From NCBI GenBank assembly GCA_030647435.1, contig JAUSJX010000012.1:196063-260062 (forward strand): a DNA stretch of 64,000 nucleotides, in the 5' to 3' direction. The notes under the pieces were generated by a model. It was not told the origin of the DNA and did no database searches. It was given only the letters and a program-made list of their open reading frames with translations. The position numbers and the translations under genes are program-made. The DNA comes from Candidatus Rokuibacteriota bacterium. GTDB lineage: Bacteria > Methylomirabilota > Methylomirabilia > Rokubacteriales > CSP1-6. The first letter of the stretch is position 1. Each line of letters starts with the position of its first letter. Positions 40,519 through 62,966 of the stretch are shown here, one piece after another.

Positions 40519-41835
40519 GTGAGCACCTCGATTGACACGCTGGAACGCAGAATCGATACGCGAGCGGCAACTGTGGCGGTGGTCGGCATGGGCTATGTCG
40601 GGCTGTCCCTGGCGGTAGAGCTATGCCGAGCGGGCTTCCGGGTGCACGGCATCGACCTGGACGTGGAGCGGGTGAGTCTCCTGAACCGGGGTGCGTCGTA
40701 CCTCGTCGACGTGACGGGCGAGACCCTTGCGCCCCTGGTCCGGGAAGGCCGCCTTACCGCCACGACAACCTTCGAGGTCGCCGCTGCCAGCGACGTCCTG
40801 ATCGTCTGCGTCCCGACGCCGCTGCGCAAGAGCAAGGAGCCCGACATCTCGTTCATCCTGGCGGCGCTCGAGAGTCTGCTGCCCCATCTGCGCCGGGGAC
40901 AGCTGATGGTCCTCGAGAGCACAACCTTCCCCGGCACCACTGAGGAGGTCGTCCTCCCTCGCCTCGAATCCCGTGGCTGGGTCGTCGGCGGCGACTTCTT
41001 CCTGGCATTCTCCCCGGAGCGCGTGGACCCGGGCAACCGGCAGTTCACCACCGCCAACATCCCGAAGGTGGTGGGCGGGGTGACGCCGGCCTGCACGCGG
41101 TTGGCCGCGGCACTGTACCGCGTGATCACGGGCTCGGTGTTCGAGGCCTCGAGCCCGCGAGTCGCCGAGACCGCCAAGCTGCTCGAGAATACGTTTCGCA
41201 GCGTGAACATCGCGCTGGCCAACGAACTGGCGGTCGCCTGCCGAAAGATCGGCGTGGACCCGTGGGAGGTGATCGAGGCGGCGGCGACCAAGCCGTTCGG
41301 CTTCATGCCCTTCTACCCGGGTCCGGGCATCGGCGGCCACTGCATCCCGGTGGACCCGCTGTACCTGTCCTGGAAGATCCGGCTCGCCGGCCACGAGACG
41401 CAGTTCATCGCCCTCGCCGACCAGATCAACCGCGCCATGCCGGAGCACGTCGTCACCCTGGTAGCCGACGCGCTGAACGAGCGCGGCCGGGCGGTGCGCG
41501 GGGCCATGGTCCTCGTCCTGGGCGTCACCTACAAGCCCGACGTCAACGACATCCGTGAGTCACCTGCCCTCGAGATCATCCAGACGCTGGCCCGCAAAGG
41601 CGCCCAGGTTTCCTACGCCGACCCCTTCGTCCCGCAGTTGGCGCTCGGCGATCTGAAGCTCGCGGCGGTGGAGCCTTCGGCCGAAGCCGTCGCGGCCGCC
41701 GACTGCGTGCTGATCCTGACCAACCACTCGGCCTTCGACTACGCGATGGTCGCCGACCGCGCCACGCTGGTCGTCGACACACGCAATGCCATGAAGGACT
41801 ACCGACGTTCCCGGCCCTGGATCGTGACGCTCTAA
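40519..41835 (+). CDS. UDP-sugar 6-dehydrogenase (WecC/WbpA-like)
   Basis: The 438-aa product has an N-terminal Rossmann domain (VAVVGMGYVGLSLAVELC), the middle dimer domain and a C-terminal UDP-binding domain (VLVLGVTYKPDVNDIRESPALEI). The catalytic Cys is Cys275 in GIGGHCIPVDPLYLSWK. This motif set fits the UDP-HexNAc dehydrogenase group that makes HexNAc uronic acids; with wecB in the same operon UDP-ManNAcA is a reasonable product, though UDP-GlcNAcA is possible. GTG start at 40519 after GAAAGGAAA. Confidence 0.9.
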   Translation: MSTSIDTLERRIDTRAATVAVVGMGYVGLSLAVELCRAGFRVHGIDLDVERVSLLNRGASYLVDVTGETLAPLVREGRLTATTTFEVAAASDVLIVCVPTPLRKSKEPDISFILAALESLLPHLRRGQLMVLESTTFPGTTEEVVLPRLESRGWVVGGDFFLAFSPERVDPGNRQFTTANIPKVVGGVTPACTRLAAALYRVITGSVFEASSPRVAETAKLLENTFRSVNIALANELAVACRKIGVDPWEVIEAAATKPFGFMPFYPGPGIGGHCIPVDPLYLSWKIRLAGHETQFIALADQINRAMPEHVVTLVADALNERGRAVRGAMVLVLGVTYKPDVNDIRESPALEIIQTLARKGAQVSYADPFVPQLALGDLKLAAVEPSAEAVAAADCVLILTNHSAFDYAMVADRATLVVDTRNAMKDYRRSRPWIVTL

Positions 41836-42858: not shown

Positions 42859-43735
42859 CGTATTGACGTTTGACGTCGAGGAGTACTTCCACGCGGAGGC
42901 CTTCGCGGGCGTGGTTCGACCGGAGGACTGGCCGACGTTCGGCAGCCGCGTGGTCGACCCTACCGAACGCCTCCTCGACATGCTCGACTACGCCGACGTC
43001 CGGGCGACGTTCTTCGTCCTGGGCTGGGTGGCGGAGCGCCAGCCGGGCCTGGTCCAGGAGATCCATGCCCGCGGGCACGAGCTGGCTTGCCACGGGTACA
43101 GCCACCAGATGATCTCGCGACTGACCCCGCAGGAATTCGCCGAGGATGTGAAGCGAGCGAAGAAGGTGATCGAGGACATTGCGGGAACCCGCGTGATCGG
43201 GTACCGGGCGCCGACGTTCTCCGTCACGCGCCAGACCTTGTGGAGCCTCGAGGTGCTGATGGAGGCCGGCTTCCGGTACGACTCGAGCATCTTCCCCATC
43301 GTCCACGACCGGTACGGCATCCCGGACGCCCCACGCTTCGCCCACCGGATCCCCATCTTCGCCAACCGGATCCCCATCGTCGGCAATGGCTGTGCCATCG
43401 CCGAGCTGCCCCTCTCGACGCTCTCCGTCTTCGGGCGGCGACTGCCGGTGGCGGGCGGCGGCTACTTCCGCCTTCTCCCCTACGGGCTCACGCGTCTCGC
43501 TATTCGACACCTCAACAAGGTCGAGCGCCAGCCGGCCGTGGTCTACCTCCACCCGTGGGAGCTCGATCGACACCAGCCCCGGCTGTCCGTCGGGCGGCTG
43601 ACCCGGCTCCGCCACTCCATCAACATCGACGAGACCGAGGACAAGCTGTGCCGGCTCCTCGCAGACTTCCGTTTCGCCCCCGCCGCGCAGGTCCTCGCCG
43701 AGACCGGCGTCCTCGTTAGCGGAGAGGCGTCGTGA
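42851..43735 (+). CDS. Exosortase-locus polysaccharide deacetylase (DUF3473 type)
   Basis: The 294-aa product (ATG 42851; GTG 42845 is an alternative) opens with LTFDVEEYFH, the hallmark of the PEP-CTERM-locus deacetylase subfamily (TIGR03006-like). The NodB-fold metal site is visible in TFDVEE and HGYSHQMI, with RAPTFSVT as the next motif and the DUF3473 tail (PVAGGGYFRLLPYGLT, VVYLHPWELD). It probably removes N-acetyl groups from the polymer. It overlaps the epimerase stop by 8 bases and wecB by GTGA. Confidence 0.92.
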   Translation: MNNVLTFDVEEYFHAEAFAGVVRPEDWPTFGSRVVDPTERLLDMLDYADVRATFFVLGWVAERQPGLVQEIHARGHELACHGYSHQMISRLTPQEFAEDVKRAKKVIEDIAGTRVIGYRAPTFSVTRQTLWSLEVLMEAGFRYDSSIFPIVHDRYGIPDAPRFAHRIPIFANRIPIVGNGCAIAELPLSTLSVFGRRLPVAGGGYFRLLPYGLTRLAIRHLNKVERQPAVVYLHPWELDRHQPRLSVGRLTRLRHSINIDETEDKLCRLLADFRFAPAAQVLAETGVLVSGEAS

Positions 43736-44817
43736 AGCTCGCGGCCGTCGTGGGGGCGCGCCCGAACTTCGTCAAGGTTGCTCCAATCCTGGCCGCGCTG
43801 CGCCAGCGCAGCGGCATCTCCACCACGCTGATCCACACGGGCCAGCACTACGACGCGGAGATGTCGGGGGGCTTCTTCGCCGACCTGGAGCTGCCCGAGC
43901 CCGACGTGAATCTGGGGGTACGGGCAGCCAGCGCCGTGGCGCAGATCGCCGAGATCATGGCCCGGCTCGAGCCGATACTGGTCGCCGAACGGCCCGACAC
44001 GCTGATCGTAGTTGGAGATGTCAACTCCACGCTCGCCGGCGCGCTGACCGCGGTGAAGCTGGGACTCCGCGTCGCCCACGTGGAGGCCGGTCTCCGGAGC
44101 TTCGACCGGAGCATGCCCGAGGAGCTCAACCGGGTGCTCACCGACCAGATCTCCGATCTCCTGTTCACGACCGAGCCGGCGGCCAACGAGAACCTCGCTC
44201 GCGAGGGCATTCCCGCCGATCGCGTCCACTTCGCAGGCAACGTGATGATCGACACGCTGTTCCGTTGTCGCGAGCGCGCCCAACGGTCCGCCATCCTGGC
44301 CACGCTCGGGCTCTCAGCGGGCCAGTACGCGGTGCTTACGCTGCACCGGCCGAGTAACGTGGACGACAACCGGGCCCTGGGGCGCATGCTTGCCGCCATT
44401 GAGCGGATCCAGGCGGACCTGCCCGTGGTCTTCCCGGTCCACCCACGCACCCGCCAGCGCCTCGAGGCCCTCAACGGGCAGATGCCGGACATGCCCGGCC
44501 TCCGCCTGGTATCGCCCCTGGCCTATCTCGACTTCGTCCAGCTGATGGCCAACGCGCGCTGCGTACTCACCGACTCGGGAGGCATCCAGGAGGAGACGAC
44601 GGCCCTGGGTATCCCGTGCCTCACCCTCCGGACCAATACTGAGCGGCCTGTCACCATCCAACGGGGCACCAACAGGCTGGTGGGAGTAGAACCCGAGGCA
44701 ATCTACGCCGGCTGGCAGGACGTGGGCCGGGGCCACTGGCCCGCCGGCGAGCTGCCGGAGCTCTGGGATGGCAAGGCGGCGGGACGGATCGTCTCCGTCC
44801 TGCTGGGTGAGCGGTAG
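43732..44817 (+). CDS. wecB: UDP-N-acetylglucosamine 2-epimerase
   Basis: The 361-aa product is a non-hydrolysing WecB: GARPNFVKVAPIL start, HTGQHYD, VVGDVNSTLAGAL, HVEAGLRSFDRSMPEELNR with the catalytic Asp/Glu region, VTLHRPSN-like LTLHRPSNVDD, and LTDSGGIQEETTALGIP. It makes UDP-ManNAc, the substrate for the upstream dehydrogenase. GTG start overlaps the deacetylase stop. Confidence 0.95.
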   Translation: MKLAAVVGARPNFVKVAPILAALRQRSGISTTLIHTGQHYDAEMSGGFFADLELPEPDVNLGVRAASAVAQIAEIMARLEPILVAERPDTLIVVGDVNSTLAGALTAVKLGLRVAHVEAGLRSFDRSMPEELNRVLTDQISDLLFTTEPAANENLAREGIPADRVHFAGNVMIDTLFRCRERAQRSAILATLGLSAGQYAVLTLHRPSNVDDNRALGRMLAAIERIQADLPVVFPVHPRTRQRLEALNGQMPDMPGLRLVSPLAYLDFVQLMANARCVLTDSGGIQEETTALGIPCLTLRTNTERPVTIQRGTNRLVGVEPEAIYAGWQDVGRGHWPAGELPELWDGKAAGRIVSVLLGER

Positions 44818-45868: not shown

Positions 45869-47107
45869 ATGAGAATCCTGATGCTCGGTCCGTGGGTGCC
45901 CTCGGCACGGTACCCGGTGGAGGCGGAGCGGCTCCTCCGCTTCGCCCGACACCTCGTCCATGGTCACCGGCTCACGCTCGCCTTTGCCACAGACGTCCCC
46001 GACCACTCGGGGACGATCCTGGCGCTGCGTGCCGAGTTTCCGGACATGGAGTTCGCCGTCGTGCCGCGCCGCCTCCGGCGGCTGTGGAGCGCGCTCCGCC
46101 TGTTCGCCAAGGCGTCGGTCGAGCTCACGTACTTCGACTCCGCCGCGCTTCGCACCCGCCTCCGCGACCGTGAGCGGACCTCCCCCTTCGACGTGGTCTA
46201 CGCCGCGTCGGCCGGCATGATCCAGCACGCGCTCGACCTGGAGCGCCCAGGGCCGCTGGTGATCGACTTCGGGGACCTCGACTCAGAGTGGTGGGAGCGC
46301 CGCGCTGCGGGAAGCCCCCGGCTCAAGGCGGGATTCTATCGCGCCGAGGCGGCCAGGGTGCGCGAGTTGGAGCAGGCCGCCGCCCGGCGGGCCACGGTCT
46401 CCATGGTGTCGAGCGTCCAGGCCGCCGAGCGGATTGCTTCCTTCGCTCCCGGGGTCCCCGTCGTCGTGGTCCAGAACGGCGTGGATCCGGAGCGCTATCC
46501 GGCGGGCCCCCATCGGGCGGCCGAGCCGGTCATCGCATTCACCGGCTCCCTCGAGGGCGCCGGCGGGTTCGACGCTGCCACAAAGTTCTGCCGCGGGGTG
46601 CTGCCCGCGGTCCGCGCTCAAGTGGCCGGCGCTCGTGTCGTGATTCCCGGCCGGTACCTGCCCCGGTCCGCGCGACGCTTGGCGCGGCTGCCCGGCGTCG
46701 AGATCGTCGGCAACGGCGTGGACCTTCGGGCCCTCTTCCGACACGCCGCCGTCGCCGTCTCGCCCTCAGGCGACTCCAACGGGGCGCGCCAGGGGGCGCT
46801 CGAGGCCATGGCCGCTGGCGTGCCGCTTGTGGCGAGCCGAAAGAGCCTGAACGGGCTATGGGCGAAGTTCGATCAAGAGGTGTACGTCAAGGACGACCCC
46901 GGGGCCATGGCCCGCCGCCTGGTCGAGCTGCTCAGCAGCGAGTCCATGCGCGCGGAGGTGGGCAGCCGCGGCCGGGCTTTCGTCCGCGCGCACCATTCAT
47001 GGGAAGCCGCGGCTGTCCACGTCGCCCAAGTGGTCGACCGCGTCCTGAGCATCACGCCCCGCGCGTTCCGGCCGGCGGCAGCCCCTGAGGCGCCTGCGAA
47101 ACCATGA
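45869..47107 (+). CDS. Glycosyltransferase family 4-like, exosortase-locus type
   Basis: The 412-aa product has a GT-B fold: N-terminal ILMLGPWVPSARYPVEAERLLRFARHL, the DFGDLDSEWW segment seen in exosortase-associated transferases (TIGR03087-like), VVVQNGVDPERYP in the linker, and the sugar-nucleotide site VAVSPSGDSNGARQGALEAMAAGVPLVAS with the EAMA glutamate. Adds a sugar to the growing repeat unit; linkage unknown. The stop overlaps the next ATG (ATGA). Confidence 0.9.
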   Translation: MRILMLGPWVPSARYPVEAERLLRFARHLVHGHRLTLAFATDVPDHSGTILALRAEFPDMEFAVVPRRLRRLWSALRLFAKASVELTYFDSAALRTRLRDRERTSPFDVVYAASAGMIQHALDLERPGPLVIDFGDLDSEWWERRAAGSPRLKAGFYRAEAARVRELEQAAARRATVSMVSSVQAAERIASFAPGVPVVVVQNGVDPERYPAGPHRAAEPVIAFTGSLEGAGGFDAATKFCRGVLPAVRAQVAGARVVIPGRYLPRSARRLARLPGVEIVGNGVDLRALFRHAAVAVSPSGDSNGARQGALEAMAAGVPLVASRKSLNGLWAKFDQEVYVKDDPGAMARRLVELLSSESMRAEVGSRGRAFVRAHHSWEAAAVHVAQVVDRVLSITPRAFRPAAAPEAPAKP

Positions 47108-48207
47108 AGATTCGTCGCATCACCGATCGCGCGGACTTCGACGCGCTGGCCCCCGTCTGGGACGCCGTCGTGGCGGAGAGCGGACAGACCTCGCCCTTCC
47201 ACAGCCATGACTGGTTCGTCTGCTGCTGGAACGCCGCCCTTCCGGACCGCCAGCCGGAGGCGCTCGTGGTCGAGGACGCGGCCGGCCCGGTGGGGCTCGT
47301 GCCCCTTGTCAGGTGGAAGGGCGATCTCCACGGCGTCCCTGCCCGATTCGTGGGCCTCCTTCACGTACCCGACACTCCCTTCGTAGACTGGCTCTCCGTC
47401 GGGCCTCCAGAGCCCATCATCGAAGCCGTCATGAAGGACCTCGCCAGGCGTGAGGACTGGGACGTGCTCGCGCTCGCCGGGCTGCCGGCCACCTCGGTCA
47501 CGGTCAAGGCGCTGGAGGCTTGGCTCCCCGGCCGCTTCCGCTGGCACCAGACGAGCGTTCTCCGCTCTCCATCCCTCGTGGTGTCGGGCACGTGGGAGGA
47601 ATTCTGGGCCGGCAAGAGCCAGCGATTCAAGAAGACCATCCGCAACGTCGCCAACCGCCTGGCCAAGGCGGGGACTCTCGCCGTCGAGCAGCACCGCGAG
47701 GTCCAGCCCGACGGGCGGGTTTTCGCCGAGCTCCTCGACGTCTCGCGCCGGAGCTGGAAGGCGCCTCGCCAGGTCGCCATCGCCACCATGCCGCGCATGC
47801 CGGAGTTCTTCGGCGAGCTTACCGTGCGCGCCAGCGCGCGCGGGTGGCTCCGCCTCTGGGTCCTCCGCCTCGACGGCCGCGCGGTGGCGACCGAGTATCA
47901 GCTCGAGGACGGCGGGCGGGTCCATGCGCTGAGGGCGGAATTCGACGGGTCCCTCCCCGAGGAGCTCTCTCCCGGCACCCATCTCAACGCCGAGATCGCG
48001 CGCGCCCTGTTCGCGCGGTCCGGAGTGCACGAGTACGACATGGGCCCGGGGGAGAACGAGTACAAGTCACGCTGGACCTCGGACGCCCACGAAACCGTGG
48101 GGCTGCGCATCTACCGGCCCGGGACGTACGGCGCGGCGCTGTACGCTCTCGAGGCCCGCGCGGTGCCGGCGATCCGAAAGCTTCGACGCCAGGGAAACCC
48201 GGCATGA
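47104..48207 (+). CDS. CelD/BcsL-family GNAT acetyltransferase-like protein
   Basis: The 367-aa product fits the CelD/BcsL acyltransferase family: SPFHSHDWFVCCWNAALPD at the N terminus, FWAGKSQRFKKTIRNVANRLAK mid-protein, and the GNAT-type AEIARALFARSGVHEYDMGPGENEYKSRW tail. It likely acylates the polysaccharide or its precursor. It is the second FemAB/GNAT-like gene in the locus, separated from the first only by the glycosyltransferase. Confidence 0.85.
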   Translation: MKIRRITDRADFDALAPVWDAVVAESGQTSPFHSHDWFVCCWNAALPDRQPEALVVEDAAGPVGLVPLVRWKGDLHGVPARFVGLLHVPDTPFVDWLSVGPPEPIIEAVMKDLARREDWDVLALAGLPATSVTVKALEAWLPGRFRWHQTSVLRSPSLVVSGTWEEFWAGKSQRFKKTIRNVANRLAKAGTLAVEQHREVQPDGRVFAELLDVSRRSWKAPRQVAIATMPRMPEFFGELTVRASARGWLRLWVLRLDGRAVATEYQLEDGGRVHALRAEFDGSLPEELSPGTHLNAEIARALFARSGVHEYDMGPGENEYKSRWTSDAHETVGLRIYRPGTYGAALYALEARAVPAIRKLRRQGNPA

Positions 48208-50048
48208 GCCTCATCGGCGGACTCGTCTATCGCGATCCGACGCGCCCGGTCGAACCGGGCCGCCTCTCCCTCGGGTCCCTCGCCGATCCCGGTGCCGGTC
48301 GAGGGACCCGGATCGGCCTCCCGGGCGCCCTCCTCGCGACCGAAGGGGAGCAGGCGGCATGCGCGCAGTGGGACGGCGCGGCGGCCGCGATGGATCACGA
48401 CCTCACCAACCTGGACGAGATCCGCGGCTCCTCGAAGGTCGAGCCAACGATCCGCGTCCTCGAGGACGGCTATCGCCGCCACGGCGCCCGGTTTCTTGCG
48501 GCTCTCCGCGGGGGCTTCGCGCTGGCGCTCTGGTGGCCGCGCTCCCGTCGCCTCCTGCTGGCCGCCGACCGCTTCGGCATCCGGCGCCTCTACTACGCGG
48601 CGACACCAGAGGGCATCGCCTTCGGGACCCGCGTCAGCGTCCCGCTGGCGCTGCCGGGGACGACATCGGCGGTGGATCCCGAGGCGGTCTACGCCTACCT
48701 CAATTACAGCGCGATCCCCGCCCCGCAGACGGTCTACCGCGCCATCCGGCGGCTGCCCCCGGGCCATCTCCTCGAATGGGAGGACGGCCGGCTCCGTGTG
48801 GAGCCCTATTGGGACATGCGGTACACGGAGCGGGCGATCTCACGCACCGCTGCCTCGGCGTCGCTCCGCCGGCACACCGAAGAGGCGGTAGGTGATGCAC
48901 TCCGTGGCGCCGACCCGAAGCACACGGGGGCCTTCCTGAGCGGCGGCACCGACAGCAGCACTGTGGTGGGGCTCATGACGCGCCTGACGGGCGAGCGCGT
49001 CAACGCCTTCTCGATCGGCTTCCTCGAGACTCGGTACGACGAGCTCCAGTACGCCGAGCTGGCCGCCCGGCACTTCGACGCCGCCCACTACACCCGCGTG
49101 GTCACAGCCGATGACGCCTTCAGCTGCCTGCCCGAGGTGGTCGAAGCCTACGACGAGCCCTTTGGCGACAATTCGGCGCTGCCCACCTTCCTCTGCGCGC
49201 GCCAGGCGCGCGAGACAGGAATGCGGCTGATCCTGGCCGGGGACGGCGGCGACGAGATCTTCGGCGGCAACGAGCGCTACCGCCGCGAACAGATTCTGGC
49301 CCGCTACCGGTTGATCCCTGGAGCGATCCGGAAGGGCCTGATCGAGCCCATTCTGGGCGCCGTAAAGCCGGGCCGCATGGACGTGTTGGGCAAGGCCCAG
49401 CGCTATGTCGGCCGGGCGTCGCAGCCGAATCCCGACCGGTTCTACTCCACAGAGTTCTTCATCGCCCGCGAGCGCCTACGGCTCCTCCACCCGGACTTTC
49501 TCTCGGCGGTCACCGCGGACGCTCCGTTCCGGATCGCCCGCCGCCACTTTGACGCCGTCACCGCCCGGAGCGAGCTCAACCGGCTGCTCTATGTCGATCT
49601 CAAGATCACCATCGGCGATAACGACCTATTCAAAGTGACGCGGATGGCTGAGCTGGCCGGCATCGCCGTGCGCTTCCCGATGCTGGACCCGCGGCTGGTG
49701 GAATTCACGGGCACCCTCCCCGCCTGGCACAAGGTCCGGGGAACGGAGAAGCGCCACCTCTTCAAACGCGCGTTCTCGACCCTGCTCCCGGCGGCCACCC
49801 TGGCCAAGGTCAAGCACGGCTTTGGACTGCCCATCAGCGACTGGCTCCGCACCCACGGGCCGTTTCGCGAACTGGCGCGGGACACGCTCCTGTCCCGCCG
49901 GAGCCGGGAGCGTGGGTACTTCGCGCCCGGAGTGATGGAGGAGCTCTTCCGGCTCCACGAGGATGACCGCACCCCGTTCTACGGCGATCTGCTGTGGTCG
50001 CTCCTCATGCTGGAGCTCTGGCACGGGCACCATGGAGACGTCGCATGA
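48204..50048 (+). CDS. Asparagine-synthase homologue lacking the glutaminase nucleophile
   Basis: The 614-aa product has an intact synthetase half (AFLSGGTDSSTVVGLM pyrophosphatase loop, ILAGDGGDEIFGGN, KHGFGLPISDWLR), but begins MSLIGG instead of MCGI, and the glutamine-binding NGEIYN motif is replaced by a DHDLTNLDEI segment. The N-terminal domain therefore cannot hydrolyse glutamine in the usual way; ammonia or another amine donor would be needed. Two intact paralogues follow 8 kb downstream. The ATG at 48204 overlaps the previous stop; an extended upstream frame is only an antisense-like shadow. Confidence 0.9.
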   Translation: MSLIGGLVYRDPTRPVEPGRLSLGSLADPGAGRGTRIGLPGALLATEGEQAACAQWDGAAAAMDHDLTNLDEIRGSSKVEPTIRVLEDGYRRHGARFLAALRGGFALALWWPRSRRLLLAADRFGIRRLYYAATPEGIAFGTRVSVPLALPGTTSAVDPEAVYAYLNYSAIPAPQTVYRAIRRLPPGHLLEWEDGRLRVEPYWDMRYTERAISRTAASASLRRHTEEAVGDALRGADPKHTGAFLSGGTDSSTVVGLMTRLTGERVNAFSIGFLETRYDELQYAELAARHFDAAHYTRVVTADDAFSCLPEVVEAYDEPFGDNSALPTFLCARQARETGMRLILAGDGGDEIFGGNERYRREQILARYRLIPGAIRKGLIEPILGAVKPGRMDVLGKAQRYVGRASQPNPDRFYSTEFFIARERLRLLHPDFLSAVTADAPFRIARRHFDAVTARSELNRLLYVDLKITIGDNDLFKVTRMAELAGIAVRFPMLDPRLVEFTGTLPAWHKVRGTEKRHLFKRAFSTLLPAATLAKVKHGFGLPISDWLRTHGPFRELARDTLLSRRSRERGYFAPGVMEELFRLHEDDRTPFYGDLLWSLLMLELWHGHHGDVA

Positions 50049-51049
50049 GCCTCAGGGATCAGGCCATCCGCGCGGTCTCGAGCGCCCTCTACCACAGCCG
50101 CCTCCTGGGTCCGATCGCGACGGCGGCCATCTACGCGAGCCCCAGACGTGGCTTCCCGATCCTGACGTTCCACCGGGTCAACGACGACCACGACCCGTTC
50201 TTGCCCGCTATGCCCACGGTCGTGTTCGCGGCGCGCATTGCCCACATCGCACGGCACTACCGGGTGCTGGCCGTGGAAGATCTCGTGGAGCGCGTGCGCC
50301 AGGGCACGGCGCCCCGCAACGCCCTGGCGCTGACCTTCGATGACGGCTATCGCGACAACCTGAGCCACGCGGCCCCGATCCTGGCCCAGCACAGGTTGCC
50401 GGCAACCATCTTCCTGGCGACGGGTTACATCGGGACGCCGGATGTGCCGTGGTTCGATCGCGTAGCCCTCGCCTTCAAGCTCTCCCGGCGCAGGGATGTC
50501 ACGCTCCCCGGCTGCCAGCCGCTACACATCGAGACCGAAGGAGACCGGCTCGCCGGCCTCAAGCTCGCGATGGGCTGGCTCAAGACTCTTCCTGACGACG
50601 AGCGCCGCCGAGCGGTGGAGCGGCTGGTGGCCGATCTCCGACCCCGGGGGCCCGGGCGGCCAAAGCGAGTCATGCTCACCTGGGAGGAAGTGGACGCCCT
50701 GCGCGGGCTCGGCTTCTCCATCGGGGCCCACACCGTGACCCATCCCATCCTGTCGCGCGTGACGCCGGAGCGCGCCCGCGAGGAGATCCAGGGATCCAAG
50801 GACGCTATCGAGCGGACCCTGGGCGTGCCCGTCCGCGCCTTCGCCTATCCGAACGGTGGCCCCGAAGACTATAGTTCGACGACGGTCCGGCTCGTGCAGG
50901 AGTGCGGCTTTACCTGCGCGGTGAGCGCGCGCCGGGGTCTCAACGGACCTGCCATGCCTGCATTCGAGCTCCGGCGTGGAGGCCCCTGGGAGGCTCACCT
51001 GCCCACCTTTGCCCTCAAGCTGGCCTACTACCGGCTGACGGGCGCCTGA
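50045..51049 (+). CDS. NodB-type polysaccharide deacetylase
   Basis: The 334-aa product has the NodB motifs ALTFDDGYRDN (metal-binding Asp pair) and GAHTVTHPILS, plus FAYPNGG as motif 3, following FPILTFHRVNDD. An N-terminal amphipathic segment precedes. It is distinct from the DUF3473-type deacetylase earlier in the locus. ATG overlaps the asparagine-synthase-like stop (ATGA); glmS follows after 15 bp. Confidence 0.92.
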   Translation: MSLRDQAIRAVSSALYHSRLLGPIATAAIYASPRRGFPILTFHRVNDDHDPFLPAMPTVVFAARIAHIARHYRVLAVEDLVERVRQGTAPRNALALTFDDGYRDNLSHAAPILAQHRLPATIFLATGYIGTPDVPWFDRVALAFKLSRRRDVTLPGCQPLHIETEGDRLAGLKLAMGWLKTLPDDERRRAVERLVADLRPRGPGRPKRVMLTWEEVDALRGLGFSIGAHTVTHPILSRVTPERAREEIQGSKDAIERTLGVPVRAFAYPNGGPEDYSSTTVRLVQECGFTCAVSARRGLNGPAMPAFELRRGGPWEAHLPTFALKLAYYRLTGA

Positions 51050-51064
51050 GGAGAACGATCGCGC

Positions 51065-52903
<1,839 letters not shown>

Positions 52904-56381: not shown

Positions 56382-58280
56382 ATGTGCGGGATCGCCGGGA
56401 TCGTCAACCTGACGGGTCACCCCGTGGATGAGGCGCTCCTGCGCGCCATGACCACGGTCCAGGCCCATCGCGGCCCGGACGGTGAGGGCATCGTCTGCCG
56501 CGGCGGCGCCGGGCTCGGTCACCGGCGGCTGGCCATCATCGACCTGGCCACCGGGGATCAGCCCATGGCCAGCGAGGACGGCGCGATCCGGATCGTGTTC
56601 AATGGGGAGATTTACAACTTCCGCGAGCTGCGCCGCGAGCTGGAGTCGCGCGGGGCCCGCTTCGCCACGACGTCCGACACCGAGGTCATCCTGCGGGCCT
56701 ACGAGGCCGACGGCCCGGCCTGCGTCACCCGGCTGCGCGGGATGTTCGCGTTCGCCATTCTGGACGAGCGGGCCCGCCGGCTCTTCCTGGCGCGCGACCG
56801 CGCGGGCATCAAGCCGCTGGTCTATGCCTGGGACGGACGGCGGCTTCTCTTCGCCTCCGAGATCAAGGGCATCCTCGAGGACCCCGGCGTGCCGCGCGAG
56901 CTCGACTGGGACGCGCTGGGCGATTACCTGACCTATCACTATGTGCCGGCGCCCCGCACCATCTTCAAGGCGATCCGGAAGCTGCCGCCGGCCTCCACCC
57001 TGGTGCTACCGCTGGAGGGTGGCGAGCCCGTGGTGTCGCGCTACTGGACGCTTCGCCTGGATCCCGACCAGGGCCCGACGGAACAGGAGTGGATCGAGCG
57101 GTTACGGGCGGAGCTGGCGGATGCCGTGCAGAGCCACATGGTCAGCGATGTGCCCATCGGCGCCTTCCTGAGCGGCGGCGTGGACTCGAGCACCGTCGTC
57201 GCCCTGATGGCTCAGGCCTCTTCCGCGCCTATCCGCACCTTCTCCATCGGCTTCGACGAGGCCGACTTCGACGAGCTCCGCTTCGCCCGCCAGGTCGCCG
57301 CCCGCTACGGCACCGACCATTACGAGCTGGTGGTCAAGCCCAATGCGCTCGACGTCCTGCCCAAGCTCGCCTGGCACTTCGACGAGCCATTTGCCGACTC
57401 CTCGGCCATTCCGACCTACTACGTGTCCAAGATCACCCGCGAGCATGTCACCGTGGCGCTCTCCGGGGATGGCGGCGACGAGAACTTCGCCGGCTACCGC
57501 CGCTACGCCCGGGCCCTGGCGCTCCACGAGCGCCTCGACAGCGGGCCGGCGCGCCTGGCCCATCCGCTCTGCCGGCTCGCCTCGGCCCTCCTGCCGACCG
57601 GTGCGCCCGGTCAGGCCTGGGCGGGGCTCCTCGGGGCCGAGCCGCTCGAGCGGTACTTCCGGCTGGTCACCTATCAGCGCCATGAGACGCTCCGCCGCCT
57701 CCTGTCCGACGAGCTGGCCGATCTGGCCCGTTCCGCCGCGGATCCCGCGGTCTTCTCGCGGCTGGCCGCCGAGGCCGGCGCGCCGGACTATGTATCGGCT
57801 CTCCAGCACATCGACATCGCCACCTATCTGCCCGATGACATCCTGACCAAGGTGGACCGGACCAGCATGGCGGTGTCGCTCGAGTCTCGCGTGCCGCTCC
57901 TGGACCACCGGCTCATGGAGCTCGTGGCGACCATCCCGTCCGGCCTCAAGCTGCGAGAGGGCACCGGGAAGTACCTGCTCAAGCGCGCCATGGCCAATGA
58001 CCTCCCGCCGGAAATCCTCACGCGGAAGAAGATGGGCTTCGGCGTGCCGCTGGGCGCCTGGTTCCGCCGCGAGCTTCACGACATGACGCGTGATGTGCTG
58101 CTGGGGCCGCAGGCCCGGCAGCGCGGCATCTTCCGCACCTCGGAGGTGGAAGCGCTCATGGCCACCCACGACGCGGGCCGCCGCGACTGCTCGGCGCGTC
58201 TCTGGTCGCTCATCTGCTTCGAGCTGTGGATGCGGCAGTGGGTGGACCGCGCCCCGGCGGCCGCACGGGAGGCCCCGTAG
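56382..58280 (+). CDS. Asparagine-synthase-family amidotransferase (exosortase-locus type 1)
   Basis: The 632-aa product is complete: glutaminase nucleophile Cys2 (MCGIAGIVN), VFNGEIYNFRELR, SDTEVILRAYE, and synthetase loop AFLSGGVDSSTVVALM, ALSGDGGDENFAGYRRY, DILTKVDRTSMAVSLESRVPLLDH. It resembles the exosortase-associated amidotransferase 1 (TIGR03108-like), which probably amidates a uronic acid or other carboxyl in the polymer rather than free aspartate. The ATG at 56382 starts MCGI, 13 bases after the ATPase gene; longer frames upstream are not real. Confidence 0.93.
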   Translation: MCGIAGIVNLTGHPVDEALLRAMTTVQAHRGPDGEGIVCRGGAGLGHRRLAIIDLATGDQPMASEDGAIRIVFNGEIYNFRELRRELESRGARFATTSDTEVILRAYEADGPACVTRLRGMFAFAILDERARRLFLARDRAGIKPLVYAWDGRRLLFASEIKGILEDPGVPRELDWDALGDYLTYHYVPAPRTIFKAIRKLPPASTLVLPLEGGEPVVSRYWTLRLDPDQGPTEQEWIERLRAELADAVQSHMVSDVPIGAFLSGGVDSSTVVALMAQASSAPIRTFSIGFDEADFDELRFARQVAARYGTDHYELVVKPNALDVLPKLAWHFDEPFADSSAIPTYYVSKITREHVTVALSGDGGDENFAGYRRYARALALHERLDSGPARLAHPLCRLASALLPTGAPGQAWAGLLGAEPLERYFRLVTYQRHETLRRLLSDELADLARSAADPAVFSRLAAEAGAPDYVSALQHIDIATYLPDDILTKVDRTSMAVSLESRVPLLDHRLMELVATIPSGLKLREGTGKYLLKRAMANDLPPEILTRKKMGFGVPLGAWFRRELHDMTRDVLLGPQARQRGIFRTSEVEALMATHDAGRRDCSARLWSLICFELWMRQWVDRAPAAAREAP

Positions 58281-58282
58281 CC

Positions 58283-60175
58283 ATGTGCGGGATAGCCGGC
58301 TTCGCCTTCACCGACCCCCGGCACCCCGTGGACCGGGAGCTCCTCGGTCGTATGACGGGCGTCCTGCGCCACCGCGGGCCGGACGCCGACGGCTCTCACT
58401 TCGGGCCGGGCGTGGGACTGGGACACCGGCGGCTCAGCATCATAGACCTCGCCACCGGCGACCAGCCTATCTACAACGAGACCCGCTCCGTCGCCGTGGT
58501 CTTCAACGGCGAGATCTACAACTTCCCCGAGCTGGCGCGCGAGCTCGAGGCGCGCGGGCATACCTTCGCGACCCGGTCGGACACGGAGACCATCGTCCAC
58601 GCCTACGAGGACTTCGGCCTCGAGTTCGTGAAGCGGCTGCGCGGCATGTTCGCCTTCGCGCTCTGGGACGAGTCCCACCGCCGCTTGGTCCTGGGGCGGG
58701 ACCGCGCGGGAAAGAAGCCGCTCTACTACCACGCCGACGGGGAGCGCCTGGTCTTCGCCTCCGAGATCAAGGCCCTCCTGCAAGATTCGAGCATCAAGCG
58801 GCGCGTCTCTCCGGAGGGATTGAGCGACTATTTCACCTTTGGCGTCATCCCGGCGCCCGGCACCGTGTTCCAGGACATCCAGCAAATCCCGCCCGGGCAC
58901 CTTCTGGTCTGGGAGCGCGGCCGCGTGCGCCTGCACGAGTACTGGGACGTGGTCTTCGACCGCACGGGGCCCGCGACGCCCGGTGCGGCGTCGGAGGCCT
59001 TCTCGGCCCTCTTCGACGAGGCCGTCGGCATGCGGATGGTCGCGGACGTGCCGCTGGGCGCCTTCCTCAGCGGCGGGGTGGACTCCTCCGCCGTCGTCGC
59101 CTCCATGGCCCGGCAATCCGCCCGGCCCGTGGTCACGACCTGCGTCGGCTTCGTCGAGCGCACCCACAGCGAGCTCGAGCACGCCCGGGTCGTGGCGAAG
59201 GCGCTGGGCACCGAGCACCACGAGGTCCTGGTCAAGCCCGACGCGATCAGCGATCTGCCGCGACTCGTCTGGCACCTGGACCAGCCCTTCGCCGATTCCT
59301 CGGCGCTGCCCACCTACTACGTCTCCCGTGCCGCCCGCGAGCGGGTCACCGTGGTGCTGTCCGGCGACGGCGGCGACGAGCTCTTCGCCGGCTATCAGCG
59401 CCGCTACGGCGTCCACCGGCTGGAGCAGCGGCTGCGGCGGCTCATCCCCGGCCCCGTGCGTCGCGGGGTCCTCGGCCCGCTGGCGCGGGTCTACCCACGC
59501 TCGGACCTCATCCCGCGGCCGCTGCGCCTCAAGCTCGTGCTCTCGAACCTCGGCCAGTCATTCGAGCGCGCCTATTTCAACGATATGTCGCTGTTCCTTG
59601 ACGAGGAGAAGCAGGCGCTCTGCACCCCCGAGTTCCTCGCCCAGGCCCGGCACCACGATCCCATCGCCGGCTTCGCCCGGCACTTCGAGCGGGTCCGCGA
59701 CGCCGATCCGCTCTCGCGCATCCTCTACGTGGACTTCAAGACCTGGCTTGCCAACGACATCCTGGTCAAGGTGGACCGCATGAGCATGGCCTGCTCACTC
59801 GAGGTGCGCTCGCCGCTCCTCGATCACAAGATCATCGAGTTCGCCGCGAGCCTGCCGCCGCAACTTAAGTTCCGCGGCTCCGTCTCGAAATACCTGCTCA
59901 AGCGTCACGTGGCGGAGCGACTGCCCGCCGCGGCCGTCCACCGCCCCAAGCAGGGGTTCGAGCTGCCGCTCGCGGCATGGCTGCGAGGGGATCTGCGGGA
60001 CATGGCGCGTGACCTGTTGTTCTCCACCCAGGCGGCGGGCCGCGGGTATGTGCGGCCCGAGGCAGTCAAGCGGATCTGGGATGCTCACCAGAGCGGCTAC
60101 CGCAACCAGTCCTCACAACTCTGGGCGCTGATGGTGCTCGAGCTCTGGCACCGGCAATACGTAGATACGCCATGA
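58283..60175 (+). CDS. Asparagine-synthase-family amidotransferase, second intact copy
   Basis: The 630-aa product is intact, with Cys2 (MCGIAGFAF), VFNGEIYNFPELAR, SDTETIVHAYE, AFLSGGVDSSAVVASM, VLSGDGGDELFAGYQRRYG and ILVKVDRMSMACSLEVRSPLLDH. It starts 2 bases after its paralogue's stop and clearly arose by duplication, but sequence has diverged, so a different carboxyl acceptor is likely. Its stop overlaps the methyltransferase start (ATGA). Confidence 0.93.
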   Translation: MCGIAGFAFTDPRHPVDRELLGRMTGVLRHRGPDADGSHFGPGVGLGHRRLSIIDLATGDQPIYNETRSVAVVFNGEIYNFPELARELEARGHTFATRSDTETIVHAYEDFGLEFVKRLRGMFAFALWDESHRRLVLGRDRAGKKPLYYHADGERLVFASEIKALLQDSSIKRRVSPEGLSDYFTFGVIPAPGTVFQDIQQIPPGHLLVWERGRVRLHEYWDVVFDRTGPATPGAASEAFSALFDEAVGMRMVADVPLGAFLSGGVDSSAVVASMARQSARPVVTTCVGFVERTHSELEHARVVAKALGTEHHEVLVKPDAISDLPRLVWHLDQPFADSSALPTYYVSRAARERVTVVLSGDGGDELFAGYQRRYGVHRLEQRLRRLIPGPVRRGVLGPLARVYPRSDLIPRPLRLKLVLSNLGQSFERAYFNDMSLFLDEEKQALCTPEFLAQARHHDPIAGFARHFERVRDADPLSRILYVDFKTWLANDILVKVDRMSMACSLEVRSPLLDHKIIEFAASLPPQLKFRGSVSKYLLKRHVAERLPAAAVHRPKQGFELPLAAWLRGDLRDMARDLLFSTQAAGRGYVRPEAVKRIWDAHQSGYRNQSSQLWALMVLELWHRQYVDTP

Positions 60176-60906
60176 CAGGCTTCGAGCGACAGTGGCAGAG
60201 CCGGTTCGAGAAGTTCGCCACTCGGCACCAGCCCGAGCATCTTGTCTCAGGCTGGTCCGCGGCGGGCCTCCGGCGCCGTGTGGCCGTCTTCGAGGCGCTC
60301 CTCGACCGGGGCCTCCTCGGCGCCGGGGCCCGCGCGCTCGAGCTGGGCTGCGGGGCGGGGACCTATGTCCGTGTGCTCGCCAAGCGCGGACACCCGGTGG
60401 TCGGCCTCGACTACTCGCTGCCGAGCCTTCGCCGCGCGGTGGCGGCGGACGTACCGCGGGTGGGACGGTATGTCTCCGGCGATGCCTCCTGCCTCCCGTT
60501 CCAGGACCGGAGCTTCCAGGTCGTCGCCTGCATCGGCGTACTCCAGGCCCTGGAGGGACCCGAAACCGCGCTCGCTGAAATCGCCCGCGTCCTCGGACCT
60601 TCCGGGGTGGCGGTGGTCGAAACTCTCAACCCGTGGGGTCTCTTGGCCGCGTTCCGCAGACTCTCGGCCTTCATCCGGCGTCAGCCGACCCGGCTTCGCT
60701 ATGGCTCGCCGGGGGCGGTCGAGCGGACAATGGCTTCCTTGGGCCTCCGGCCCGTCCGCCGACTCAGTATTCTGCTTCCCCCACGCTCCTTGCCCGGCCT
60801 CGAGCGCACGCTCGGACAGCCCTGGGTTGTTCGAGCGCTCGAGACCATGCCGGGCGTTCGGGCGTTGGCTCCGCAGGCCTACTGGATCGTTGGAGTGAAA
60901 GCATGA
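60172..60906 (+). CDS. Class I SAM-dependent methyltransferase
   Basis: The 244-aa product has the SAM motif LELGCGAGTYVRVLA (about 57-71), GLDYS acidic loop, GDASCLPFQDRSFQVVACIGVLQALE (motif II/III) and LGPSGVAVVETLNPWG. No TM. It may methylate a sugar of the polymer, perhaps the cap recognised by the exporter tail; that is inference. It overlaps the preceding amidotransferase and the following kinase by ATGA. Confidence 0.9.
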   Translation: MTGFERQWQSRFEKFATRHQPEHLVSGWSAAGLRRRVAVFEALLDRGLLGAGARALELGCGAGTYVRVLAKRGHPVVGLDYSLPSLRRAVAADVPRVGRYVSGDASCLPFQDRSFQVVACIGVLQALEGPETALAEIARVLGPSGVAVVETLNPWGLLAAFRRLSAFIRRQPTRLRYGSPGAVERTMASLGLRPVRRLSILLPPRSLPGLERTLGQPWVVRALETMPGVRALAPQAYWIVGVKA

Positions 60907-62966
60907 TGGCCGGCGCTCCCCTGGTTGCCGCTGCCCTGAGCCTGGTCTTTGCAGGGATCTCCCTGCTTCGGCCACCCCGCCGGCTGCGGCAGGTCACGTT
61001 CGCCGGTGGAATGGTCACCTTCGCGCTCCAGTCGCTCCTGGTCTACGGGCTCCTGTTCTACTCGCTGACGCCCGAGAGCCACCAAAGGTGGATGATTGCG
61101 CTCCAGTCCGTGGCCCTCCTCGTGCCGATTCCCTGGTGCCTGTTCGCCTTCCTGGCAGGCCGCCACGCCGATGCCCGCATCCCGCGCGGCTGGCGGTTCT
61201 CCCTGTCGCTGGGGAGCGCCGGCCTGGCGGTCACGGCCGCGGTCAACGTGCTCTGGCCCTTCTTCCTCGTGCCGAACGCCACGGGCCCCTTCCGCTACGC
61301 CCAGCTCTCCTTGCTCGGTCAGGGCGGGATCGCCATCGAGCTGCTCGCCACGATCGCGGTGCTGTACGGTCTCGAGCCTTCTCTTCGCAACTCACAGGGC
61401 TCCGTCCGGTGGCAGTTCAAGTACCTGGCCCTGGGCTTGGGGGGCATCTTCGCCGTCAGGTTCTACCTGCTCGGCCAGGCCCTGCTCTTTCACGTGCTCG
61501 ATCGGCAGAGCCTCCTCATCGAAACGAGTGCCCTGATCATCGGCGAGCTTTTCGTCGCTATCGGGCTCCTCCGTTCGGGCGCCCTTCGCACCGATCTGAC
61601 GGTCTCCCGGCACTTCGTGTACCGGTCCACCGTGGTGGGCCTGTGCGGCCTCTATCTTTTCCTTGCCGGCGCAGCCGGATGGCTCCTGAACGCGCTGGGG
61701 ATTCCCGAGGCGGCGCTCGTGGGCACCCTGGTCGTCTTCGTCGCCGTGATGGGCCTGGCGGCCCTTGCGCTGTCGGAGAGCCTGCGCTGGCGATTCAAGC
61801 GCTACATCAGCACCCATTTCTACGCGGACAAGTACGACTACCGCCAGCAGTGGCGGACGTTCACGGCCAACTTGACGGCGCGGGTCACACTCGACGGCCT
61901 CGCGACCCAGCTGCTGCGGAGCGTCACCCAGACCATCGGCGCGCGGAAGGCCGCGCTGTACTTGGCAGACGAGACCGACGGCGCCCTTCGGTTCCATTCC
62001 GTCCTCAGTGCCGGACCGCTCCCGAAGACGCTCGAGGCGACACCCGATGACTTCCTGACGGGCCAGAAGGCGCCTGAGGCGCGGCACCTCACGACTCTCG
62101 GGAACGGTCGGGCGGAGGCCCTGCTCGCCGCGGGGCTCGTCCTGGCCGTCCCCCTGCGCACCCAGGGACGCCTGGTGGGGGTGTTGCTGGTCGGAGCCGA
62201 GCAGACCGGCGCGCCCTATACCCAGGAGGACCTGGATCTGCTCACCACGCTCGGAGAGCAGGCGGCCAGCGCCACCGCGACCGTTCAGCTCTCCGAGCGC
62301 CTGGCCCAGTCCCGCGCCTTCGAGGCCTTCAACCGGCTCTCGTCCTTCATCATCCACGACCTCAAGAACTCGGTCTCGGCGCTCTCGATGCTGACCCAGA
62401 ACGCGCCGAAGCACTTCGACGATCCTAAATTCCGGGTCGGCGCGCTCGGGACCCTCACGCGCACGGTCGCGCGCATGCAGAAGCTCGTCGGCAGGCTGTC
62501 AACTCGCCAGCCAGCGACCGAGCTCGAGTTCGAGAGCCTGCCGCTGGACGAGCTGGCGCGCGACACAGTCGCGTCCATGTCGATGGGGCCCGTGCTTCAC
62601 CTGACGCTGGCCCTCGACTCCGTGTCCTGCGTCCGAGGCGATAGCGACGCCATCCAGCGTGTCATACAGAACTTGATCACGAACGCCGTTGAGGCGATGG
62701 ACGGCGAGGGTACGATCACGCTCCGCGTCTGCCGTCAGGACGGCATGGTCGCCTGCGCCGTGACGGACACAGGCTGCGGCATGACCGAAGAGTTCGTCCG
62801 GACCTCGCTCTTCGTGCCGTTTCAGACCACGAAGAAGGGCGGCTGGGGCATCGGCCTCTACCAGGCGCGCGAGATCATGACGGCGCATGCCGGCCGCATC
62901 GAGGTCTCGAGCCAGGAGGGGCGCGGCACCACCGTGACACTGCTGTTCCCGGAGGAGAAACCGTGA
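60903..62966 (+). CDS. prsK: PrsK-type membrane histidine kinase
   Basis: The 687-aa product has about eight to nine N-terminal TM helices (to about residue 290), a GAF domain (about 320-455, TLDGLATQLLRSVTQTIGARKAALYL) and a kinase core: phospho-acceptor His485 in FIIHDLKNSVSALSML, N box DAIQRVIQNLITNAVEAM, and G boxes DTGCGM and GGWGIGLYQ. This layout is that of PrsK, the kinase of exosortase (PEP-CTERM) systems that acts with a sigma-54 regulator. No regulator is adjacent. The first of two ATGs (60903) overlaps the methyltransferase stop. Confidence 0.9.
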   Translation: MMAGAPLVAAALSLVFAGISLLRPPRRLRQVTFAGGMVTFALQSLLVYGLLFYSLTPESHQRWMIALQSVALLVPIPWCLFAFLAGRHADARIPRGWRFSLSLGSAGLAVTAAVNVLWPFFLVPNATGPFRYAQLSLLGQGGIAIELLATIAVLYGLEPSLRNSQGSVRWQFKYLALGLGGIFAVRFYLLGQALLFHVLDRQSLLIETSALIIGELFVAIGLLRSGALRTDLTVSRHFVYRSTVVGLCGLYLFLAGAAGWLLNALGIPEAALVGTLVVFVAVMGLAALALSESLRWRFKRYISTHFYADKYDYRQQWRTFTANLTARVTLDGLATQLLRSVTQTIGARKAALYLADETDGALRFHSVLSAGPLPKTLEATPDDFLTGQKAPEARHLTTLGNGRAEALLAAGLVLAVPLRTQGRLVGVLLVGAEQTGAPYTQEDLDLLTTLGEQAASATATVQLSERLAQSRAFEAFNRLSSFIIHDLKNSVSALSMLTQNAPKHFDDPKFRVGALGTLTRTVARMQKLVGRLSTRQPATELEFESLPLDELARDTVASMSMGPVLHLTLALDSVSCVRGDSDAIQRVIQNLITNAVEAMDGEGTITLRVCRQDGMVACAVTDTGCGMTEEFVRTSLFVPFQTTKKGGWGIGLYQAREIMTAHAGRIEVSSQEGRGTTVTLLFPEEKP

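Follow-up and report, generated by a model that had tools for sequence, protein, structure and literature searches.

An asparagine-synthetase-like family without a glutaminase site, its association with exosortase-A systems and its candidate role as an amide ligase

What can an asparagine-synthetase-like enzyme do once it no longer draws nitrogen from glutamine? The question is raised by a 64,000-nucleotide stretch of a Candidatus Rokuibacteriota genome (contig JAUSJX010000012.1, hereafter the window), which encodes, in addition to two intact amidotransferases, an asparagine-synthetase-like protein of 614 aa without a glutaminase site, here termed AS* (48204..50048; all features of the window given below lie, like this one, on the forward strand). 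A preliminary description of this DNA had placed the protein at 48204-48430, which spans only the N-terminal part of the gene. The family to which AS* belongs behaves like an unmodelled component of exosortase-A (XrtA) systems. As read from its sequence, AS* could be an exosortase-A-associated amide ligase, ATP-dependent and joining a carboxylate to a substrate amine, with its N-terminal domain (N-domain) kept as a scaffold, a function to which we give about an even chance.

Residues, phylogeny and selection in the AS* family

AS* was aligned with the two intact XrtA-type amidotransferase paralogues of the window, AS_A (56382..58280) and AS_B (58283..60175), in which MCGIAG, HRGPD, HRRL, NGEIYN and SDTE are all present. 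The N-terminal MSLIGG of AS* (48204..48221) takes the place of the MCGI(A/V)G of intact enzymes, with Ser at the position of the catalytic Cys2, and HRGPD, HRRL and SDTE are absent. The preliminary description had noticed the replaced N-terminus correctly; it had also called the NGEIYN loop gone, and here the glutamine-binding motif is indeed lost but the loop itself is not deleted, DHDLTN (residues 64-69, 48393..48410) standing at its position. Its statement that the ATP-dependent half is intact agrees with the alignment: AS* retains the pyrophosphate-binding loop (PP-loop) SGGTDSS (residues 246-252, 48939..48959), which binds the ATP pyrophosphate, GDGGDE (residues 346-351, 49239..49256), in which D347, D350 and E351 correspond to AsnB E348, D351 and E352, and the K.KHGFGLP signature (residues 535-543, 49806..49832), whose K537 corresponds to AsnB K449. 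A further family signature, DND (residues 472-474, 49617..49625), ends in D474, the equivalent of AsnB D384 and human ASNS D400.

Profile scores give the same picture. The Pfam Asn_synthase model matches AS* with 266 bits over residues 221-607, and GATase_7 gives only a partial match to residues 72-144. Among the NCBIfam models, TIGR03108 (XrtA amidotransferase) scores 334.7 bits, under its cut-off of 816.9, which the intact paralogues of the window also fail to reach (697.3 and 747.6 bits), and TIGR01536 (asparagine synthase, glutamine-hydrolysing) scores 245.8 bits against a cut-off of 267.1. Of the features of the latter model, the PP-loop, D347, D350, E351 and K537 are present in AS*, and the catalytic Cys and the NGE loop are missing. 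None of the four AS* proteins scored (P0001, L110, L119 and L078) reached an NCBIfam cut-off; as far as tested on these four proteins, the AS* family is without an NCBIfam model of its own.

That a sequencing or gene-call artefact hides an upstream MCGI, the error that the preliminary description had named as able to overturn its reading, is refuted. The start codon of AS* overlaps the stop of the upstream gene, and the same residue loss recurs throughout the clade, including orthologues from separate assemblies. Orthologues were found among 60 relatives in G033 (64% identical), G006 (54%) and G014 (57%), with a partial one in G094, and further ones in the named records L061 and L068 (a Candidatus Rokubacteria contig). 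Those read at the N-terminus have no Cys there: G033 begins with MT, G006 with VS and G014 with MR, and the genome_contigs record L061 (62% identical) has SNILGG at this position.

Residue counts cover 81 glutaminase-dead AS* sequences, together with 56 intact enzymes encoded at the same loci. Seventy-six of the 81 were retrieved from genome_contigs with the patterns LAGDGGDE and [VI][ED][AS]YDEPF, and AS* was the best window match of every one of the best 80 of the 414 pattern relatives. The conservation of the pattern stretches, A345, D347, D350 and E351 among them, is thus partly by construction, and the counts for D474, K537, the PP-loop, Cys2 and NGE are free of this bias. Open reading frames (ORFs) with a short N-terminus were left out, which removed three AS* sequences (84 to 81: L130, L134 and L137, the last cut by a contig end) and four intact ones (60 to 56), and some start codons were chosen by rule. 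Where a residue stands at the Cys2 position, it is Cys in 0/75 AS* rows and in 42/42 intact ones. The Asn of NGE is found in 0/80 AS* sequences, its Glu in 2/76 and the Asp of SDTE in 11/81, against 56/56 intact enzymes in each case; likewise, the N-domain residues Arg139 and Glu161 (AS_B numbering) are kept in 0/81 and 1/81 AS* sequences and in all 56 intact ones. On the synthetase side, Ser and Asp of the PP-loop are invariant (81/81), as are D347, D350 and E351 (81/81 each) and K537 (80/80).

The residue that replaces Cys2 may be S, T, G, A, D, P, N, R, H, Q, E, K, I or F, a free variation by which Ser is no conserved substitute nucleophile. A Cys at position 5, present in many members (MSGICGW), was considered as a moved nucleophile and rejected as a family feature: this column holds Cys in 25/81 rows, the others having F, A, Y, G, L, V, S, T or a gap, with Gly in the window's AS*. 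Two of the omitted ORFs go further. In L130 (a Rhodoferax metagenome-assembled genome (MAG), 827-2380) and L134 (Polaromonas, 1427-2998), only ∼150 residues precede the PP-loop, compared with ∼245 elsewhere, and the end of another gene lies so near on the upstream side that a full N-domain would not fit. To judge from these sequences, both look like cases of real loss of most of the N-domain, and they may be natural synthetase-only ligases. The gene that ends just upstream reads in both like one for a putative small acyltransferase.

Phylogenetically, AS* forms a single clade on the synthetase half, with a Shimodaira-Hasegawa-like approximate likelihood ratio (SH-aLRT) support of 100 (50 AS* rows of 105) and a support of 100/99 under a mixture model with outgroups (30 AS* rows of 59). 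This clade adjoins the XrtA-type enzymes, on a tree with long outgroup branches and an uncertain root, whose rows do not include beta-lactam, carbapenam or lasso enzymes; one outgroup row, a cyanobacterial AS-related protein, is weakly placed beside AS*. The family represents a further lineage, in one clade, of the asparagine-synthetase (AS) scaffold with a lost ammonia supply. Its members come from Rokubacteria-like genomes, Acidobacteriota, KSB1 and Proteobacteria. Two further records may be misbinned: L061, labelled an 'Actinobacteria' MAG contig, carries a Rokubacteria-like block of AS* and its two neighbours at 62-64% identity, and the AS* of L088, a 3-kb 'Acetothermia' contig, is nested with that of Ectothiorhodospira.

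The two halves of AS* evolve differently. Mean pairwise identity is 0.249 in the N-domain and 0.476 in the C-terminal domain (C-domain), as against 0.566 and 0.428 in the intact paralogues. In nine close AS* pairs from other genomes, the ratio of nonsynonymous to synonymous substitution rates (dN/dS) is 0.05-0.11 for the C-domain and 0.09-0.29 for the N-domain (two sequences are shared between pairs and two pairs have dS >1.2); the pair L065/L084 is one in which the N-domain is not the looser half. The synthetase half is under purifying selection, and the former glutaminase domain is probably held more loosely, as structure or scaffold. The window's own protein fits this less well, its values being above those of the close pairs in both the N-domain (0.58 against L010 and 0.43 against L061) and the C-domain (0.23 and 0.27), at a dS near 0.9-1.0. 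A decaying pseudogene is rejected by dN/dS and by the open frame. The same evidence bears on the idea that AS* forms no bond at all and is a pseudoenzyme or a regulatory subunit, with ATP or an intact paralogue as its binding partner. Of its two active sites one is dead, and intact homologues stand alongside in 23/23 AS* genomes of the class sample described below, which would suit such a role; the ATP-binding and catalytic residues of the synthetase half are nevertheless invariant, the C-domain is conserved no less than in the intact enzymes (in sets that differ in make-up), and the low C-domain dN/dS of close pairs speaks against it, so that we regard it as improbable.

Association with exosortase-A systems

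The link with XrtA was measured in an even sample of 143 genomes from the class to which genome G131 belongs. AS* was found in 23 of them (604-900 bits, E ≤1.8e-181), XrtA above its cut-off in 27 and both in 21. XrtA is thus present in 21/23 AS* genomes versus 6/120 others (p = 8.9e-18), or in 20/22 when the centre genome is left out (p = 4.3e-17), and AS* in 21/27 XrtA-positive genomes; genome relatedness is uncorrected in these associations and in those within the window's phylum. Nine of the genomes with both genes have them on one contig, 9.5-70 kb apart, and the other twelve have them on different contigs. Among 50 AS* genomes reached through loci, 44 contain an exosortase. In the window's phylum, AS* occurs in 5/95 genomes (E ≤1.7e-197 with A2; best intact enzyme 7.8e-134), and any exosortase match at E 0.001 is found in 5/5 of these versus 29/90 others; the XrtA cut-off is reached in only 3/95 genomes of this phylum.

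The association has its exceptions, and these count against the reading of AS* as an exosortase-A-associated ligase. Two of the 23 AS* genomes have no XrtA above the cut-off (G187, with a weaker exosortase match, and G195, with none), six of the 27 XrtA genomes have no AS* (G161, G178, G209, G220, G249 and G281), and 6/50 AS* genomes gave no exosortase match. The exosortase of the window itself (62963..63880; Exosortase_EpsH, 197 bits) scores 156.9 bits against XrtA, under the cut-off of 208. Moreover, each of the 23 AS* genomes in the class sample also encodes a TIGR03108 enzyme of at least 700 bits (truncated at a contig end in two cases), a potential partner in a different reaction, as discussed below. 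Of the specific exosortase types among the matches listed, the window exosortase reaches the cut-off of none, XrtW included (180.3 of 425 bits), and a second XrtA-like exosortase, of 198.7 bits, is encoded on C138 of the same genome.

Active site, proposed reaction and gene neighbours

The AlphaFold model of the window's AS*, built with 68 sequences, has a mean predicted local distance difference test score (pLDDT) of 93.3 and a predicted template-modelling score (pTM) of 0.93, with residues 25-29 poor, and keeps the complete two-domain AS fold, dead domain included. According to VIA-align, the closest solved structure is the hydroxyamidotransferase TsnB9 (7ylz; Z 33.3 over 533 residues, 2.9 Å, 22% identity), followed by AsnB (Z 30.2), human ASNS (29.1), beta-lactam synthetase (1m1z, 28.3) and carbapenam synthetase (1q19, 26.8). 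The N-domain superposes on N-terminal nucleophile (Ntn) glutaminase domains, the alignments of the model with AsnB, EgtC and the glutaminase domain of GlmS all beginning at its residue 2. In the synthetase half, AS* has signatures of its own, namely A345 for AsnB Ser346, N356 for Tyr, a T..DNDL.KV stretch, R517 and K535.

D474 aligns gap-free with AsnB D384 and ASNS D400, and Asp is found here in 80/80 AS* sequences and in 0/54 intact XrtA-type enzymes, which mostly have I, L or V. In a modelling study of human ASNS, Glu364, Asp367 and Asp400 surround the inhibitor amino group, Ser362 contacts the ribose hydroxyl and Lys466 the phosphate (PMC6748925). The conserved D474 suggests, from sequence, that the site receives a substrate amine. 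According to a second study, Asn74, Glu76, Arg142, Asp405 and Glu414 of ASNS contribute to its ammonia gate (PMC11615228). The equivalents of Asn74 and Glu76 are lost in AS*, and those of Asp405 and Glu414 are kept in 1/80 and 28/80 sequences. Since position 142 is Ile and position 405 Asn in AsnB, these two alone cannot exclude ammonia use. Taken together, we infer that the site holds a substrate amine and that the internal ammonia supply is lost.

Under the proposal of an amide ligase, AS* would adenylate a carboxylate with ATP, as AsnB does, the carboxylate probably being a uronic acid or the aminoacyl group of a cluster-specific sugar. The activated carboxylate would then be coupled to a substrate-derived amine in place of the glutamine nitrogen; it might be carried by an amino acid or a carrier, or be a sugar amine that the deacetylase encoded next door sets free. 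The N-domain would remain mainly as a structural scaffold. As the two intact amidotransferases of the cluster could already make a primary amide, a third, glutamine-independent ATP enzyme most simply uses another amine. Two features of the site weigh against this proposal: the window's AS* still has Arg at the equivalent of the gate residue Arg142, and AsnB and ASNS, both ammonia users, also have Asp at 474, so that D474 is by itself no proof of amine use.

The main competitor is an ammonia-dependent amidating synthetase, which would make a uronamide or other primary amide from free NH3 or from NH3 passed on by a paralogue in a complex. The preliminary description had listed ammonia, a free amine and a paralogue's ammonia among the possible nucleophiles, a reasonable list. 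Human ASNS runs on added ammonia, and its R142I and R142A variants keep ammonia-dependent activity (PMC11615228). Possible ammonia partners are at hand, both in the window, where AS_A, AS_B and GlmS are intact glutaminase enzymes, and, across the class sample, in the TIGR03108 enzymes that accompany AS* in 23/23 genomes. TIGR03108 is, however, a core XrtA gene, whose co-occurrence with AS* is expected anyway. The N-domain, which is the ammonia route in AsnB-type enzymes, is also the least conserved part of AS*; Arg139 and Glu161 are gone from it, and L130 and L134 lack most of it altogether. Nor is it easy to see why a cluster with two intact amidotransferases should need one more ammonia enzyme. 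We consider ammonia use rather unlikely.

The gene neighbourhood agrees with an amide ligase acting on a sugar. AS* is flanked by GNAT2 (47104..48207), a transferase with an Acetyltransf_6 domain that is also found in the FemAB protein of the cluster, and by the polysaccharide deacetylase deac2 (50045..51049, from its probable start; the mechanical ORF begins at 49994). The stop of GNAT2 overlaps the start of AS*, and the start of deac2 overlaps the stop of AS*, each as ATGA, and the three genes are thus probably translated together. The trio may complete a sugar of the exosortase/exopolysaccharide pathway that bears an amino acid or an amine.

By Pfam and NCBIfam matches, the window is an exosortase/exopolysaccharide cluster. 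It has sigma-54 regulators, an export protein, a priming transferase, a chain-length/tyrosine kinase and a UDP-sugar dehydrogenase (NDP-sugDHase, 40519..41835), a possible uronic acid source. The order then runs through the XrtA-system polysaccharide deacetylase TIGR03006 (42845..43735), the UDP-GlcNAc 2-epimerase WecB (43732..44817), the XrtA-system FemAB protein TIGR03019 (44827..45846) and a TIGR03087-like glycosyltransferase to GNAT2, AS* and deac2. After these come GlmS, a class II glutaminase enzyme (MCGIVG, 51065..52903), the exosortase A system-associated O-glycosylation ligase TIGR03097 (52947..54344), Wzm/Wzt, AS_A, AS_B, PrsK, a histidine kinase of XrtA/PEP-CTERM systems (60633..62966), and the exosortase. 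The preliminary description had put the two intact paralogues in the operon of AS*. They are intact and belong to the same cluster, 6.3 kb downstream on the same strand with GlmS in between, and a shared operon is plausible, the genes being on one strand with intergenic gaps of <50 bases. GlmS is a complete gene of the exopolysaccharide operon, with deac2 before it and the O-ligase behind, and keeps its place after deac2 in G033 and G006. A 516-aa protein at 35051-36601 without an NCBIfam match is found at the same place in G033, G006 and G014 (34-44% identity).

The GNAT2-AS*-deac2 block recurs in G033, G006, G014 and L061, and in G094 GNAT2 and AS* stand together before the contig ends; the remaining gene order in these five is much alike, with some genes moved or missing. 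Across the window's phylum, GNAT2 orthologues (E <1e-79) were found in 5/5 AS* genomes and, among the 90 others, at full length only in G004, in which the contig ends after GNAT2, ahead of the expected AS* position; G036 has a 76-residue fragment (55% identity). Orthologues of deac2 (E <1e-100) occur in 4/5 AS* genomes, the contig of G094 ending too early, and in 0/90 others. Fisher p is 1e-7 for GNAT2 with AS* (3.6e-7 counting the G036 fragment) and 1.6e-6 for deac2.

Beyond these genomes, the neighbourhood offers less to the proposed reaction. A deacetylase cluster is near AS* in 24/79 flank-limited loci and a GNAT cluster in 15/79, the clusters being graph communities over flanks of ≤8 kb that may be impure; these neighbours are thus kept in Rokubacteria-like genomes and not everywhere. 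In other phyla, AS* has next to it a gene pair of exosortase-A systems, for an adenylate-forming ligase (TIGR03098) and a pyridoxal-phosphate-dependent (PLP) decarboxylase (TIGR03099), which could supply an amine. The order is ligase-AS*-decarboxylase in L110 (4677-10827) and ligase-decarboxylase-AS* in L119 (4858-9581), and L078 also has this cassette beside AS*. The decarboxylase is over its cut-off in only 14/35 chosen AS* genomes, with three more at E <1e-130, and the genome of the window has none over the cut-off and only a distant decarboxylase, so that the cassette was rejected as a universal amine source.

Two plasmid loci outside these sets carry related arrangements. A Streptomyces plasmid (L161, 2620-4428) encodes an 'asparagine synthase-related protein' that starts with MSGIAGW and lacks the NGE loop, near a gene with amino acid adenylation domains; it is AS-like and glutaminase-less, and lies outside the AS* family. 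On a Mesorhizobium plasmid (L160, 429-3070), asnB stands ahead of genes for an acyl carrier protein and for an adenylate-forming enzyme, with which it may form a cassette for carrier-linked amidation.

Comparison with known systems

An AS fold with a dead glutaminase is a kind already known, from beta-lactam and carbapenam synthetases and lasso cyclases; no description of the AS* family, its XrtA link or its signatures was recognised in searches of the open-access PMC literature on AS enzymes, exosortases and polysaccharides. The nearest named family, both by NCBIfam score and on the tree, is TIGR03108 (eps_aminotran_1), with which AS* has gene clusters, GDGGDE and the PP-loop in common. In the enzymes of TIGR03108 type that were examined, the glutaminase is intact, with Cys2, NGE and SDTE in place, whereas that of AS* is dead, and AS* differs further in its signatures AGDGGDE..GN.RY, T..DNDL.KV and K.KHGFGLP and in the Asp at 474.

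Beta-lactam and carbapenam synthetases combine a dead glutaminase half with a substrate-borne amine nucleophile and a Tyr-Glu catalytic dyad, and the preliminary description had compared AS* to them and to lasso-type synthetases. A ring closure within one substrate, giving a lactam as in these enzymes, would fit the common fold and the like loss of the glutaminase. The equivalent of AsnB E348, which we take to be the position of beta-lactam synthetase Tyr348, is Asp347 in AS*, with no Tyr and with Asp in 81/81 sequences; the AS* family profile scores AsnB at 126.8 bits versus 72.7 for beta-lactam and 65.8 for carbapenam synthetase; and the genetic setting of AS* differs, being one of polysaccharide genes. 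Lactam formation is thus a very improbable function. Lasso and macrolactam cyclases, too, are AS-like and link a carboxylate with an amine. The lasso cyclase model NF033535 gives AS* 140.8 bits (cut-off 525) and the ikarugamycin-type macrolactam cyclase model NF033561 76.3 bits (cut-off 300), and no lasso gene is among the annotated neighbours in the window, according to a general Pfam/NCBIfam scan and not a search aimed at lasso genes. A specific likeness to either group finds no support in these scores, nor in the place of the AS* clade beside the XrtA-type enzymes on a tree without beta-lactam or lasso enzymes, and a descent from their lineages was set aside. TsnB9 has the AS fold in common with AS* and belongs to a different pathway.

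In two studies on floc formation, asparagine synthase genes are placed in exopolysaccharide clusters of Thauera and Rubrivivax, and mutation of RGS1_10407 alters growth mode and colony form (PMC4784049, PMC3684757). A closer parallel comes from type IX secretion, which attaches its cargo to a sugar made with VimA, VimE and WbpS; in the work by Veith et al., VimA is described as a TIGR03019-like protein of amino-acid transfer, VimE as a carbohydrate esterase family 4 (CE4) deacetylase and WbpS as the uronamide enzyme (PMC7468200). The same authors note TIGR03108 in exosortase loci, call the exosortase linking compound unidentified and speculate that it is an amino-acid-modified sugar like that of Wbp/Vim (PMC7468200).

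Taken as gene classes only, the Wbp/Vim gene kinds are all found in the window: GNAT2 and the TIGR03019 FemAB protein, two deacetylases, AS* with AS_A and AS_B, and the UDP-sugar dehydrogenase. These kinds are present twice over, the second set being the overlapping GNAT2-AS*-deac2 genes. AS* may make the XrtA cargo nucleophile, an amino acid or amine amide-bonded to a uronic sugar that would be the PEP-CTERM linking compound, although we think this more specific role unlikely. If true, the linking compound would be chemically parallel to, yet distinct from, the Wbp/Vim sugar, and exosortase-A systems would have in AS* a frequent component that has gone unrecognised; in either case, AS* offers a concrete gene and reaction for the question of where exosortases attach their cargo chemically. 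The uronic acid amidotransferase WbpS (PGN_1234) is, like AS*, an AS-like enzyme that works alongside a transferase of GNAT type, VimA, and a deacetylase of family CE4, VimE, and the overlapping GNAT2-AS*-deac2 trio resembles VimA/WbpS/VimE, with VimA and VimE likened by gene class and not by sequence. WbpS, by its description, converts a uronic acid to a uronamide by an AsnB-type amidation, whereas AS* is without the glutamine-ammonia residues, and its trio would work like VimA/WbpS/VimE with another nitrogen donor.

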